DNA from: an uncultured Tolumonas sp.
GTDB taxonomy: Bacteria > Pseudomonadota > Gammaproteobacteria > Enterobacterales > Aeromonadaceae
DNA: 64,000 nucleotides
Assembly: GCF_963556105.2 (NCBI RefSeq)
Contig: NZ_OY829944.1
Span: 1,087,001-1,151,000, forward strand
Reading direction: 5' to 3'
Shown: in pieces, positions 18,688 to 27,493 of the stretch
Position numbering within the stretch: the stretch's first letter is position 1
How the letters are laid out: each line of letters begins with the position of its first letter
Program-made: the position numbers and the translations under genes
Notes under the pieces: generated by a model
What the model saw: the letters and a program-made list of their open reading frames with translations, nothing else
Database searches by the model: none
What the model was told of the DNA's origin: nothing

Positions 18688-19664
18688 AACTGCTTGATTC
18701 TAAACACCCTGATTTTGAAACATTACGCAGAGATATATTGATGCGTCAAGGTGGTCTGCTTTCCCCCGGGCACTGTGATTATTATCAGGCGTATTTTGAT
18801 CATTCTTTTGAGGATTGTTCTTTTGCTCTGGTCCGGGGTGATAGCCGTATGCTGTTGCTTGTTACCCGGCATTGGAGTCAGGGGCGCGCTGTTTATTCCT
18901 GGTATGGCCGTTCAGTCCAATTAATTGATGAACTGCTGCCTCAGGATCGAGCTCAAAGCGAGGGACTTGCGATTAAACGAGTCCAGCATTTACTGATTCC
19001 TGGTTGTGAGTTTGATTATCAGGCAATGACCTCTGTACTAGATTGGTTATCGAAGCTTCTATTAAGTCTGGGGGTGACACCATGTTCTGTTATAGAGCAA
19101 AAAATTTCTTTGCATTCAAAGGAGCAATTATTAGCGGAATGCAGAAAGATTTATCGGCAGAACTTTCGATGGGGAATGCAAAATCTAGTTTGTCGTATTA
19201 TTGACTCACATAATGTTATGCCTGCTGATTTTGAGCAATTTGAGGCTTTTCACATTGCGGTAGCTGGTCGACGAACTCGAAGTACAGCATCTTGGTTTGC
19301 TCAGTTGGAATTAACCAAAAAGGGTGAGAATTTTTTGATTTTGACTGAATATGAAGAGCGGCTGGTGGGGGCGTCGTTATTTGCTGCGGTAGGGGAACGA
19401 GCTTATTACTCAGTGGGGGTTTATGACCGGACGTTATTTCACCTGCCCATTTCTCATTATCCCGTTTGGCTTGGTTTACTACATGCTAAGGAACTGGGGT
19501 GCAAGGTGATGGAGATGGGCGAAAGTTATTATGCTGGAGTGCCTGACTCGACAGGAAGAGTTCCTGATGAGAAGGCGTGCCAGATCAGCCATTTTAAACG
19601 CGGGTTTGGTGGCGAACTAGTCATGGGTCTCCGGTTTCGCCTTTGCTCACCTCAGACTGTTTAA
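18684..19664 (+). CDS. GNAT/FemAB-like acyltransferase, uncharacterised
   Basis: 326 aa. The C-terminal half (about residues 150-310) resembles FemAB/BioF2-type GNAT acyltransferases: RKIYRQNFRWGMQN, then RLVGASLFAAVGERAYYSVG, VWLGLLHAKELGCKVMEMGE and a closing SHFKRGFGGELV. I cannot assign a substrate. The start overlaps the methyltransferase stop (ATGA). The stop overlaps that of pseI on the other strand within TTAA. Next to maf and a methyltransferase, a role in modifying the flagellin glycan is the simplest guess. Confidence 0.65.
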   Translation: MKLLDSKHPDFETLRRDILMRQGGLLSPGHCDYYQAYFDHSFEDCSFALVRGDSRMLLLVTRHWSQGRAVYSWYGRSVQLIDELLPQDRAQSEGLAIKRVQHLLIPGCEFDYQAMTSVLDWLSKLLLSLGVTPCSVIEQKISLHSKEQLLAECRKIYRQNFRWGMQNLVCRIIDSHNVMPADFEQFEAFHIAVAGRRTRSTASWFAQLELTKKGENFLILTEYEERLVGASLFAAVGERAYYSVGVYDRTLFHLPISHYPVWLGLLHAKELGCKVMEMGESYYAGVPDSTGRVPDEKACQISHFKRGFGGELVMGLRFRLCSPQTV

Positions 19665-20689
19665 TTGAGTAAATCCCATGTCAGTGGGGTTCCGGCTTTT
19701 AGTTCTTGTTTGGCTTTTTGACCTAAGACCCGAGGTAATTCAGCGGGAGGAAGACCATCATTCGGCCGTACTGAACGAATATTATCCAGAGTAAATAATT
19801 CACCGGCTTTAATATCTTTCGATACAAAAAGTGAGCGGGCAAATTTGCGATTGTTTTTTACTTTATCGGTTAATTCATAGCTGACTTTGCCTAACGCAGC
19901 TTCAGCTTGTCTGACATTATCAACCATAACTTTAAATTCTTCAGGCGTCAGGGAAAACGAAGCGTCTGGCCCACCAATAGCTCTATCTAAAATGAAATGT
20001 TTTTCTATCACCTGAGCACCTAAAGCAACAGCTACAATGGGGGCGGTATACCCTAATGTATGATCCGACAACCCCACTTTCACACCAAATGTTTGTGCCA
20101 GATTGGGGATTGTCAGCAGATTCGCTTCTTCGATCGGGGCCGGGTAGGATGATGTACATTTCAGCAAAGTAATATCATTATTTCCCATACGCCGACAAGC
20201 GGCTACCGCGGCTTCAATATCGGCTAGAGTGGCGATCCCGGTGGAAATAATCATCGGTTTGCCTTTGCTGGCTGTGTATTCAATTAATGGAATATCGGTA
20301 ATTTCAAATGAGGCAATTTTGTAGAGTGGGACGTTTAAATTTTCTAAAAAATCGACGGCACTAAAATCAAACGGGGTAGAGAAAAATACCAGCCCAAGTT
20401 TTTCTGCTTCGGCTTGAATAGCTGCATGCCATTCCCAGGGGGTGTAGGCTTCCTGATAAAGTTGATACAGCGTGGTACCATCCCAGATAGTCCCCTGTTT
20501 TATTTGAAAGTATTCATTATTGCAATCAAGGGTAATAGTGTCTGCGGTATACGTTTGGATTTTAATAGCGTCAGCGCCACATTCTTTCACCGCGCGAACT
20601 GTTGCTAATGCATTCTCGATATTATGTCCGTGGTTCGCTGATAACTCGGCTATGATGAATGTTTTTTTTGATATGGTATTGCCGTTCAT
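19661..20689 (-). CDS. pseI: Pseudaminic acid synthase (NeuB family)
   Basis: 342 aa. PseI condenses 2,4-diacetamido-2,4,6-trideoxy-L-altrose with phosphoenolpyruvate to give pseudaminic acid. The NeuB barrel (residues 1-270) shows IIAELSANHGHN, AIKIQTYTADTITL, GLSDHTLG and VIEKHFILDR; the C-terminal SAF (antifreeze-like) domain has ARSLFVSKDIKAGE and IRSVRPNDGLPP. ATG 20689 overlaps the pseH stop (ATGA) and has GGAG upstream; the longer GTG start at 20701 would place that site inside the gene. It is the last gene of the pse operon. Confidence 0.93.
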   Translation of the reverse strand: MNGNTISKKTFIIAELSANHGHNIENALATVRAVKECGADAIKIQTYTADTITLDCNNEYFQIKQGTIWDGTTLYQLYQEAYTPWEWHAAIQAEAEKLGLVFFSTPFDFSAVDFLENLNVPLYKIASFEITDIPLIEYTASKGKPMIISTGIATLADIEAAVAACRRMGNNDITLLKCTSSYPAPIEEANLLTIPNLAQTFGVKVGLSDHTLGYTAPIVAVALGAQVIEKHFILDRAIGGPDASFSLTPEEFKVMVDNVRQAEAALGKVSYELTDKVKNNRKFARSLFVSKDIKAGELFTLDNIRSVRPNDGLPPAELPRVLGQKAKQELKAGTPLTWDLLN

Positions 20690-21243
20690 TCGCTTCTCCA
20701 CTCTTGTTTTGTCATCCCCATAAGCAGCAAATCAATATAACTGTCATCACGTCGGATTGCTTCTCTCCAGCAACCTTCGTTGACAAATCCTGCGCGTAGA
20801 TAGGCGTTGATAGCTGGGGTATTATCAGCAACAACTTCCAACTTTAGGGTATGAAATTTAGCAATATCAAATGCTAGCCAGCATATAGCCTGTAATAATT
20901 GGTTGCCCAAACCTATTTCCTGCCGGAAGGGATTTCGGTAAATGCCAAGCCATGCTATGTCATTATGCCAATCGCAACGATGCAGAGAAACGACGCCAGA
21001 CACGTCATGTTGATCATAGGTCAGGTAGTTGAAGTTACTATTTTCTATCGACTGACGAGCCATAAATGTATGATGTGCTTCCAGCGGAATTTGTCCTCCA
21101 CTGCCCATCCATTTGGCTATATCAGGATGGTTACGCATCAACCAGACCAATTCGATCTCTGTATTATTTAACTTGCTGAATGGTTTTAGTTTCAGTTTTT
21201 TCAGTTGGAATTGTTGATGCAGATCTAGCATTGGCTGAGCCAT
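20686..21243 (-). CDS. pseH: PseH: amino-sugar N-acetyltransferase (GNAT)
   Basis: 185 aa. PseH acetylates the 4-amino group of UDP-4-amino-4,6-dideoxy-AltNAc using acetyl-CoA. A GNAT fold is visible, with VWLMRNHPDIAKWMG near residue 33, IAWLGIYRNPF and the C-terminal EVVADNTPAINAYLRAGFVNEG that binds CoA. It overlaps pseG by 19 bases and pseI by four. AGGG lies before the chosen ATG, though an in-frame ATG four codons later is possible. Confidence 0.88.
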   Translation of the reverse strand: MAQPMLDLHQQFQLKKLKLKPFSKLNNTEIELVWLMRNHPDIAKWMGSGGQIPLEAHHTFMARQSIENSNFNYLTYDQHDVSGVVSLHRCDWHNDIAWLGIYRNPFRQEIGLGNQLLQAICWLAFDIAKFHTLKLEVVADNTPAINAYLRAGFVNEGCWREAIRRDDSYIDLLLMGMTKQEWRSE

Positions 21244-26200: not shown

Positions 26201-27201
26201 TCAGTTAACACCTGCTGATTCATTGCCTGTAATTCTGTTATCGTCAGGAAGTGCTGATTATTTAGCGAATTATATTCAAACCCTTGTGCTACAGGCACAC
26301 CATGCTCACCGAGTGCATTAACGGCAAAGTCATTATTGCGTGAAGAGAAGGTGATGGAAGGGGTGATTACATAATAATCTTTGAACTCAATCGTATGATA
26401 TGAGTCATCAGCCGGACACATTATTTCATGTAATTTTTCACCGGGCCGAATACCCACGATGTCGTGAGGCAAATCCGGTGCCATTGATTTTGCCAGATCA
26501 ACAATACGCACAGATGGAATTTTGGGAACAAACAACTCTCCACCTTTCATGCGTTTAAAATTATTTAGTACAAAATCGACGCCTTGTTGAAGCGTGATCC
26601 AGAATCGGGTCATTTCTGCATGAGTGATCGGTAGGCTTTTAGCTCCACTTTTAATAAGTTTATCGAAGAAGGGAACCACCGAGCCACGGGAACCGACCAC
26701 GTTGCCGTAACGGACTACAGAGAAAATCGTAGGGTTATTTCCTGCCATATTATTTGCAGCAACAAATAATTTATCAGAACAGAGTTTTGTCGCTCCGTAT
26801 AAGTTGACCGGGTTTGCAGCTTTATCGGTTGAAAGTGCAATGACTTTCTGGACGCCATTATTTAGTGCCGCCTGAATAACGTTTTCTGCACCACCAACAT
26901 TGGTTTTAATGCATTCCATCGGGTTATATTCTGCCGCTGGAACTTGTTTTAGGGCTGCGGCATGAACTACATAATCAACACCACGCATTGCCATATCAAG
27001 ACGCTGAGCATCACGAACATCACCGATAAAATAACGCATACAAGCTTGATTAAATACTTGCTGCATTTCAAATTGTTTCAGTTCATCTCTGGAGTAGACG
27101 ATCAACTTCTTCGGCTGATATTGAGCTAGTATACTGGCGATAAATTTTTTCCCGAAAGAACCGGTGCCGCCTGTTATCAGAATAGTTTTATCGTTAAACA
27201 T
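26197..27201 (-). CDS. pseB: PseB: UDP-GlcNAc 4,6-dehydratase (inverting)
   Basis: 334 aa, the usual PseB length. It catalyses the first step of pseudaminic acid synthesis, converting UDP-GlcNAc by C4 oxidation, 4,6-dehydration and C5 inversion. The NAD(P)-binding loop [12 protein letters not shown] lies at residues 9-20 and the catalytic region is [19 protein letters not shown] 27201 was chosen because AAGGA lies at good spacing; the open frame runs 21 codons further upstream but into the untranslated leader. It is the first gene of the operon, with a sigma54-type promoter about 120 bases upstream. Confidence 0.95.
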
Positions 27202-27493
27202 ATCGTTGTCCTTAGCCGTTATCGGTGAAATGTAAGCGTATGATAACAAAATTATTTTACGCAATATGCATGCAGGGTGGCGTTATGACAACAGAATGTC
27301 ACTGCAATTCGTTATGCACCAGCAACAGGCATGCCAAATTAAAAAGTCGAAAAAATGACGCTGTTATCATGCAGGAAAAACATGAAATAAAATTATGAAC
27401 AAAAAACAATCAATCCATGTACCCCCAGTACTGGTCTTCCTTCATTAAACTTTGTACAATCCGCGCCCTTCTCTACAGGTCTCTGAGGCATCC
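27202..27493. other. Divergent intergenic region pseB/rlmN
   Basis: 292 bases without a believable gene. It holds the sigma54-type promoter of pseB on the minus strand (27321-27337) and a possible rlmN promoter on the plus strand, with TACAAT at 27455-27460 but a poor -35. The part between 27340 and 27420 is AT-rich (several A runs), suitable for bending or activator binding, though I see no certain operator. Confidence 0.55.
27321..27337 (-). promoter_or_regulatory. Sigma54 (RpoN) promoter of the pse operon
   Basis: The minus strand reads TTGGCATGCCTGTTGCT. GG and GC are exactly 10 bases apart, and TTGGCA plus TTGCT match the RpoN consensus TTGGCAC-N5-TTGCW closely. It would start transcription near 27311, about 110 bases before the pseB ATG. 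RpoN controls structural genes in polar flagellar systems, so pse expression would follow flagellar assembly. Confidence 0.78.

Follow-up and report, generated by a model that had tools for sequence, protein, structure and literature searches.

Does an uncultured Tolumonas species time the supply of a flagellin sugar to the building of its flagellum, and, if so, through which promoter? This question is raised by a stretch of 64,000 nucleotides (contig NZ_OY829944.1, positions 1,087,001 to 1,151,000; hereafter the window, meaning the whole of the DNA analysed) in which an eight-gene operon, apparently for pseudaminic acid synthesis and headed by pseB, is preceded by an element resembling the promoters used by sigma-54 (RpoN). 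An earlier note, made from the sequence alone, had drawn attention to this element and proposed that the pathway is timed with flagellar assembly rather than expressed constitutively. Our comparison of pseB loci supports RpoN control of the operon well, and such control is probable. It also reveals a second conserved element, and we therefore think it likely that the operon has two promoters, a sigma-70-type promoter for basal expression and an RpoN promoter that adds a boost through a flagellar enhancer-binding protein.

An RpoN promoter-like element upstream of pseB

The element lies in the intergenic region before pseB and is oriented correctly for transcription of the operon.

27321..27336, minus strand: sigma-54 (RpoN) promoter-like element TGGCATGCCTGTTGCT, recognised by its -24/-12 geometry and its conservation at pseB loci

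Sigma-54 promoters follow the consensus TGGCAY-N5-TTGCW, and TGGCATGCCTGTTGCT agrees with it. The spacing on which the earlier note had relied is indeed present at 27336-27321, with GG at 27335-27334 and GC at 27323-27322 separated by ten bases, which is the exact sigma-54 geometry. The element ends 120 bases 5' of the pseB ATG and is kept at the orthologous position in G070 and G066, the two other same-genus loci with rlmN beside pseB that could be scored. By the usual distance from the -12 element, RpoN-dependent transcription would be expected to start at about 27310, giving a leader of about 109 nucleotides.

The window alone proves little, because a scan allowing up to two mismatches to TGGCACN5TTGCW yielded 46 matches where 45.2 were expected. 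At such loose thresholds this chance number favours a different and, in our judgement, quite unlikely explanation, namely that a sigma-70-type promoter alone works here, the RpoN-like sequence being a relic or having matched by chance. Across the 4.0-Mb genome, the full pattern TGGCAYN5TTGCW occurs 17 times, versus 3 times for the reversed pattern; about 8 of the 17 sites are intergenic and directed towards a gene, and the others fall wholly or partly within coding sequence. Going by the downstream protein sequences, full-pattern sites precede genes that we take to be flgB-, fliE-, fliO-, nifH- and nif-operon-like. One of them (G000:C1:1266013, L009) falls within a presumed fliN-like gene, 86 bases 5' of the presumed fliO-like gene. 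Two others (G000:C1:1993188 and C2:961057; L010 and L015) stand before the genes that we recognise as nifH-like and nif-operon-like, from which the organism looks like a nitrogen fixer.

The site of the nifH-like gene, TGGCATGCCAGTTGCT, differs from the pseB 16-mer at a single spacer base. This resemblance, together with a NifA-like protein (488.5 bits, below its cut-off of 528.85) and 13 matches to the sigma-54 activator family in the genome (PF00158, two of them weak), would suit a real RpoN promoter under NifA, NtrC or another activator from outside the flagellar system. We hold this to be very improbable, given that the one difference falls in the spacer, a part that contributes little to specificity, that the spacers of other pseB sites in the family are quite different, and that a maf gene and a flagellin cluster are found nearby.

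Conservation within Aeromonadaceae

The family survey covered 75 genomes, 41 of which encode PseB at E <= 1e-100, giving 42 matches. One match (L059, a second pseB copy of G071) was dropped for its broken frame, its site one base too short and its 18-kb contig, and 41 loci were left. PseB of this copy, on contig C8, is 97% identical to that of the window over residues 56-308 with the frame broken near the start, and the locus likely stems from a contig of poor quality or from a contaminating strain close to G070. We counted a site when it lay within 200 bases before the ATG, had at most one mismatch and kept both GG and GC intact.

An RpoN-like site was found at 33 of the 41 loci (the window included), compared with 1 of 41 on the reverse strand, 0 of 41 in the reversed sequence and a mean of 0.38 (maximum 3) in 200 dinucleotide shuffles. 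With g1 denoting the genus of the window, taken as Tolumonas, and g2 taken as Aeromonas, the sites are distributed as 28/31 in g2, 3/6 in g1, 2/2 in g4, 0/1 in g3 and 0/1 in g5. The 28 Aeromonas sites all sit 45-58 bases before the ATG. Many of the family loci are closely related, and the sites cannot be one copied string because 15 distinct site sequences occur among them.

Closest to home, the 16-mer recurs unchanged in G070, the nearest relative (97% identity in PseB), where 180 of 240 upstream bases are the same. The intergenic region of G066 has diverged, with 117 matches among the 240 upstream bases, and of the 11 core bases 10 are kept, the single change from T to C remaining within the consensus. 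We reject a pure chance match for TGGCATGCCTGTTGCT in view of this conservation. Both relatives also speak against the chance-or-relic explanation more generally, as does the recurrence of such sites upstream of pseB far above the controls.

Loci beyond the family

We extended the comparison to named genomes, using the best 80 of at least 585 relatives, which is not a sample of all genomes. One locus (L131, with only 75 bases upstream) was dropped, and 79 were scored. The two surveys overlap, with some Aeromonas genomes and the Tolumonas bin in both, and their counts are not additive.

An RpoN-like site precedes pseB at 30 of the 79 named loci, and the reverse strand gave none. Outside Aeromonadaceae the number is 21 of 68, and the genera concerned are Pseudoalteromonas, Colwellia, Thalassotalea, Motilimonas, Shewanella, Marinomonas, Aliagarivorans and Litorilituus. 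The control was formed by the other ATG starts of open reading frames (ORFs) in the same loci, at least 120 amino acids long and mechanical ORFs included, of which 9 of 417 had a site (Fisher p ~4e-19, uncorrected for relatedness). This background is itself partly flagellar, because three of the nine control sites precede a maf-type gene that is divergent from pseB in Shewanella and a fourth precedes an ORF that looks like fliS. Outside Aeromonadaceae, a flagellar or maf relative was present in the fetched flanks of 16 of the 21 loci with a site versus 16 of the 47 without (p 0.002, one of two such tests, uncorrected for their number).

Three Shewanella loci (L143, L147 and L151) carry one RpoN-like site in front of pseB and another in front of the maf-type gene divergent from it, an arrangement which suggests that precursor and transferase genes may be controlled together there.

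A candidate second promoter

Between the RpoN site and the pseB ATG, alignment of the same-genus loci brought out another element.

27231..27248, minus strand: extended -10-like element TGTTATCATACGCTTACA, a candidate sigma-70-type promoter, with TATCAT at 27245-27240

TATCAT is present in all 6 same-genus loci, 44-54 bases before the ATG (44 in the window), with TGn in front of it in five and a (G/C)TTA stretch behind. In the other 35 family loci TATCAT is absent from the 100 bases before the ATG, and the g5 locus (L035) has TATCAC at 77. Within the window TGTTATCATACGCTTACA is unique, as judged by a pattern written from TGTTATCATACGCTTACA itself. An extended -10 element can function without a -35 hexamer. 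Because it is kept where RpoN sites are missing, TATCAT is most simply read as a sigma-70-type promoter, and it is probably one of the extended -10 kind.

This element bears directly on whether RpoN alone drives the operon, with the pathway made only during flagellar assembly and TATCAT conserved on other grounds, perhaps as part of the leader. We find this unlikely. The Aeromonas loci speak in its favour, since RpoN sites only 45-58 bases from the ATG leave less room for a downstream promoter and no Aeromonas locus has TATCAT within 100 bases. However, TATCAT is kept in three same-genus genomes that have no RpoN site and in which transcription must begin by some other means. The proposal of the earlier note thus survives in part. 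Its RpoN control is backed by conservation in the family, whereas 'rather than constitutively', and with it an exclusively flagellar timing, is unsupported because the TATCAT element is kept in all six same-genus loci.

Proposed mechanism and its activators

If the operon does have two promoters, a weak sigma-70-type promoter with an extended -10 would provide basal expression, and the RpoN promoter, with an expected start about 65 bases upstream of the TATCAT -10, would raise expression when a flagellar enhancer-binding protein is active. This activator would be of the FlrA or FlrC type, both of which are present. The supply of cytidine monophosphate (CMP)-pseudaminic acid would then follow flagellin production, and Maf would glycosylate flagellin before export.

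The genome has one match to RpoN (PF04552) and one to the FleQ domain (PF06490), the latter in an FlrA-type protein. A sensor-regulator pair just before the fliE site is FlrBC by position, with NCBIfam hits that are generic and below cut-off. The elements, their conservation and the genes for RpoN and for FlrA-type and FlrBC-type regulators are observed, whereas the working of both promoters is inferred; the protein acting on pseB may be FlrA, FlrC or another of the 13 sigma-54-activator matches. A candidate activator box lies just upstream of the -24 element.

27346..27359, minus strand: palindrome-like box GTCATTTTTTCGAC, a putative FleQ/FlrA-like site

The box resembles the FleQ/FlrA consensus and may be such a site; it is kept in G070 and degraded in G066. 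The pattern GTCAN6YGAC is over-represented in this flagellar window (13 versus 2.8 expected, palindromes counted on both strands).

Evidence that weighs against two promoters

Several observations count against the two-promoter reading. The earlier note had named beforehand the lack of the element in close relatives as grounds for refutation, and the outcome is divided: the site is kept in two of the five other same-genus pseB genomes and missing within 200 bases in three (G071, G072 and G074), an absence which also favours a sigma-70-type promoter acting alone. The G074 locus (L036) does have a two-mismatch match 246 bases upstream, within the neighbouring gene. In L036 and L037 a maf-type gene takes the place of rlmN as the divergent partner of pseB, and the upstream sequence of the G072 locus (L038) is nearly that of L037. 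The discarded copy in G071 (L059) has rlmN-like upstream sequence with an RpoN spacer one base short, and was set aside as indel-laden.

The second promoter has weaknesses of its own. TGn is missing in L055, and a promoter scan gave TATCAT at 27245-27240 no -35 partner, for which a spacing of 16-18 bases would be expected; it listed only a different 9-of-12 pair, at 27291-27263. As to the putative activator box, GTCAN6TGAC is not enriched genome-wide (83 versus 121 reversed) and no convincing activator site emerged.

The wider survey adds further points. Among the best 80 of the relatives, 49 of the 79 scored loci have no site within 200 bases. The association with a flagellar or maf relative in the flanks is not significant when all 79 are taken together (16/30 with a site versus 17/49 without, p 0.16, the second of the two uncorrected tests), and the fetched flanks of the nine Aeromonadaceae named loci with a site include no such relative (0/9).

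FliA-like sites and a possible exchange of promoters

A further class of flagellar promoter was sought with the FliA (sigma-28) consensus. When up to two mismatches were allowed within 300 bases, FliA-like sites were found in only 3 of the 41 family loci (100 shuffles: mean 0.33, maximum 2). These are L045, L048 and L050, exactly the three Aeromonas loci without an RpoN site, and they carry a TAAA-N15-GCCGATCA-like sequence about 100 bases before the ATG, in the form TAAA-N15-G(C/T)CGATCA. The three may represent a single event because they share upstream sequence with one another, and a TATGATTCATC block within it is also common to seven Aeromonas loci that have the RpoN site. In the named loci, again the best 80 of at least 585, FliA-like sites are not enriched (6 of 79 versus 5 on the reverse strand), so there is no general FliA pattern.

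A FliA promoter in the window itself was considered and rejected: ACCGATAA stands 17 bases upstream of the pseB ATG and lacks a TAAA at the proper distance, and the window locus (L018) is not listed in the sigma-28 scan. The TATGATTCATC block occurs in ten Aeromonas pseB leaders in all (L039, L040, L043-L046, L048, L050, L052 and L053), seven with and three without an RpoN-like site, and is possibly another -10 element.

These findings bear on a broader proposal, which we regard as conceivable but doubtful, that coupling of pse genes to the flagellum is selected but achieved through interchangeable promoters, with lineages of Gammaproteobacteria having gained, moved or swapped RpoN, FliA-like and sigma-70 promoters upstream of pseB. 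It would account for a genus, that of the window, in which a sigma-70-type element is shared by all and an RpoN site is found in some members only, and for FliA-like sites in just the three Aeromonas loci without an RpoN site. We count against it the near-equal numbers of FliA-like sites on the two strands of the named loci.

The operon and its surroundings

The two candidate promoters would serve a compact operon of eight minus-strand genes that runs from pseB at 27201 to pseI at 19661, with successive overlaps of 4, 4, 16, 4, 1, 19 and 16 bases, all seven of which agree with the range of 1 to 19 bases given in the earlier note.

26197..27201, minus strand: pseB, UDP-GlcNAc 4,6-dehydratase (inverting); TIGR03589, 552.7 bits, cut-off 407.75
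25058..26200, minus strand: pseC, transaminase; TIGR03588, 537.7 bits, cut-off 423.5
24216..25061, minus strand: aldo/keto reductase (gene I-1 of the Aeromonas island); PF00248, gene order as in subgroup IA of PMC7874193
23464..24231, minus strand: cytidylyltransferase in the pseF position; PF02348, PseF model 33.1 bits versus cut-off 205.7
22178..23467, minus strand: class-III aminotransferase (gene I-2 of the Aeromonas island); PF00202
21225..22178, minus strand: pseG-like UDP-sugar hydrolase; TIGR03590, 114 bits, below cut-off 153.55
20686..21243, minus strand: pseH, acetyltransferase; TIGR03585, 110.6 bits, cut-off 93.1
19661..20701, minus strand: pseI, pseudaminic acid synthase; TIGR03586, 516.8 bits, cut-off 340.25

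The start of pseB is likely the ATG at 27201 and not the TTG at 27264 of the ORF list, and for pseI an alternative in-frame ATG is possible 12 bases further in. Only four of the eight proteins, PseB, PseC, PseH and PseI, pass the NCBIfam cut-offs for pse functions. PseG and PseF fall short of their curated values, and the 'PseF' label for the cytidylyltransferase follows from its position and its Pfam domain (PF02348). By gene order we file the pathway as an Aeromonas-type island with a putative nonulosonic acid product. A search of a plasmid collection gave no record covering 80% of the query, a result that carries little information.

Two neighbours on the plus strand deserve separate mention.

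15848..17962, plus strand: maf-type flagellin glycosyltransferase, which probably uses the sugar; PF20157 (Maf N-terminal domain) and PF01973
27494..28615, plus strand: rlmN, divergent neighbour that shares the intergenic region with pseB; TIGR00048, 529.5 bits, scanned from the TTG at 27452, with an inferred ATG start

The same rlmN-pseB arrangement is found in L019 and L055. Flagellar genes occupy the first 15 kb of the window, and the nine that were scanned include flgD, flgK, flaG, fliD and two flagellin genes of 280 amino acids. Two genes separate maf from pseI, one methyltransferase-like and one without a Pfam match. The latter (18684-19664) encodes 326 amino acids, lies between the methyltransferase-like gene and pseI, and meets pseI tail to tail, with a 4-base overlap between their ends. 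Elsewhere in the window, an FlgE/F/G-family gene at 2861 is directly preceded by an RpoN-like site with two mismatches (2809-2824) and by a palindrome, GTCAGCGATTTGAC (2838-2851).

Relation to known systems

The papers discussed here are cited from selected passages. The operon is of a known kind because its gene order and its two extra genes, the aldo/keto reductase and the class-III aminotransferase, fit subgroup IA of the group I polar flagellar glycosylation islands of Aeromonas (PMC7874193). As in that subgroup, it lies downstream of the polar flagellin region and maf, with pseBC and pseI at opposite ends; unlike there, pseB is divergent from rlmN, two genes stand between maf and pseI, and the genus appears to be Tolumonas. 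All three mentions of 'promoter' in that paper refer to the arabinose promoter, and the island of Aeromonas caviae Sch3N is described as also serving the O-antigen (PMC7874193).

Links between RpoN and flagellin glycosylation have been described in other bacteria. A review places the flagellin glycosylation enzymes of Helicobacter pylori and Campylobacter jejuni under RpoN, within the middle flagellar class (PMC3930126), and when pse genes and the glycosyltransferase gene jhp0106 were assayed in a csrA mutant of H. pylori J99, jhp0106 alone showed a dramatic drop (PMC5368276). The present case is like these in joining RpoN to glycosylation genes and unlike them in that the precursor pathway itself carries the site. 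RpoN2 and FleQ of Xanthomonas oryzae are reported to regulate the flagellin glycosylation island gigX1-gigX10 at the transcript level (PMC8657755), which likewise combines sigma-54 with a flagellar activator, although the island is a different one and ours is known from sequence alone.

Flagellin glycosylation in Shewanella depends on pseB in S. oneidensis and on pseG and maf-1 in S. putrefaciens, whose flagellins need RpoN and FlrA (PMC3120886, PMC6299084). The selected passages of these two papers do not mention RpoN control of pse; the three Shewanella loci noted above have RpoN-like sites before pseB as well as before the divergent maf-type gene. A comparative study proposes that sigma-54 controls the bacterial exterior, and its main text does not use the terms glycosylation or pseudaminic (PMC3162934); nor does a 2025 survey of sigma-54 regulons use pseB, pseudaminic or glycosylation (PMC12316311). 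Our literature search, whose coverage stopped short of the Aeromonas polar-flagellum hierarchy (Wilhelms 2011), and was made mostly on titles and the openings of abstracts, turned up no paper stating that RpoN controls pse genes in Gammaproteobacteria, and we do not claim that such control is unpublished.

Implications

Although the operon itself is already familiar, the case for RpoN is broader than the earlier note knew. If it is correct, the supply of flagellin sugar would belong to the RpoN-dependent flagellar cascade in a number of gammaproteobacterial genera, beside the published cases in Epsilonproteobacteria and Xanthomonas, and pseB expression would be predicted to fall in rpoN, flrA or flrC mutants of tractable hosts. 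The second promoter matters as well, since pseudaminic acid might be used for further surface glycans too, and for these the cell would need a supply outside flagellar assembly.

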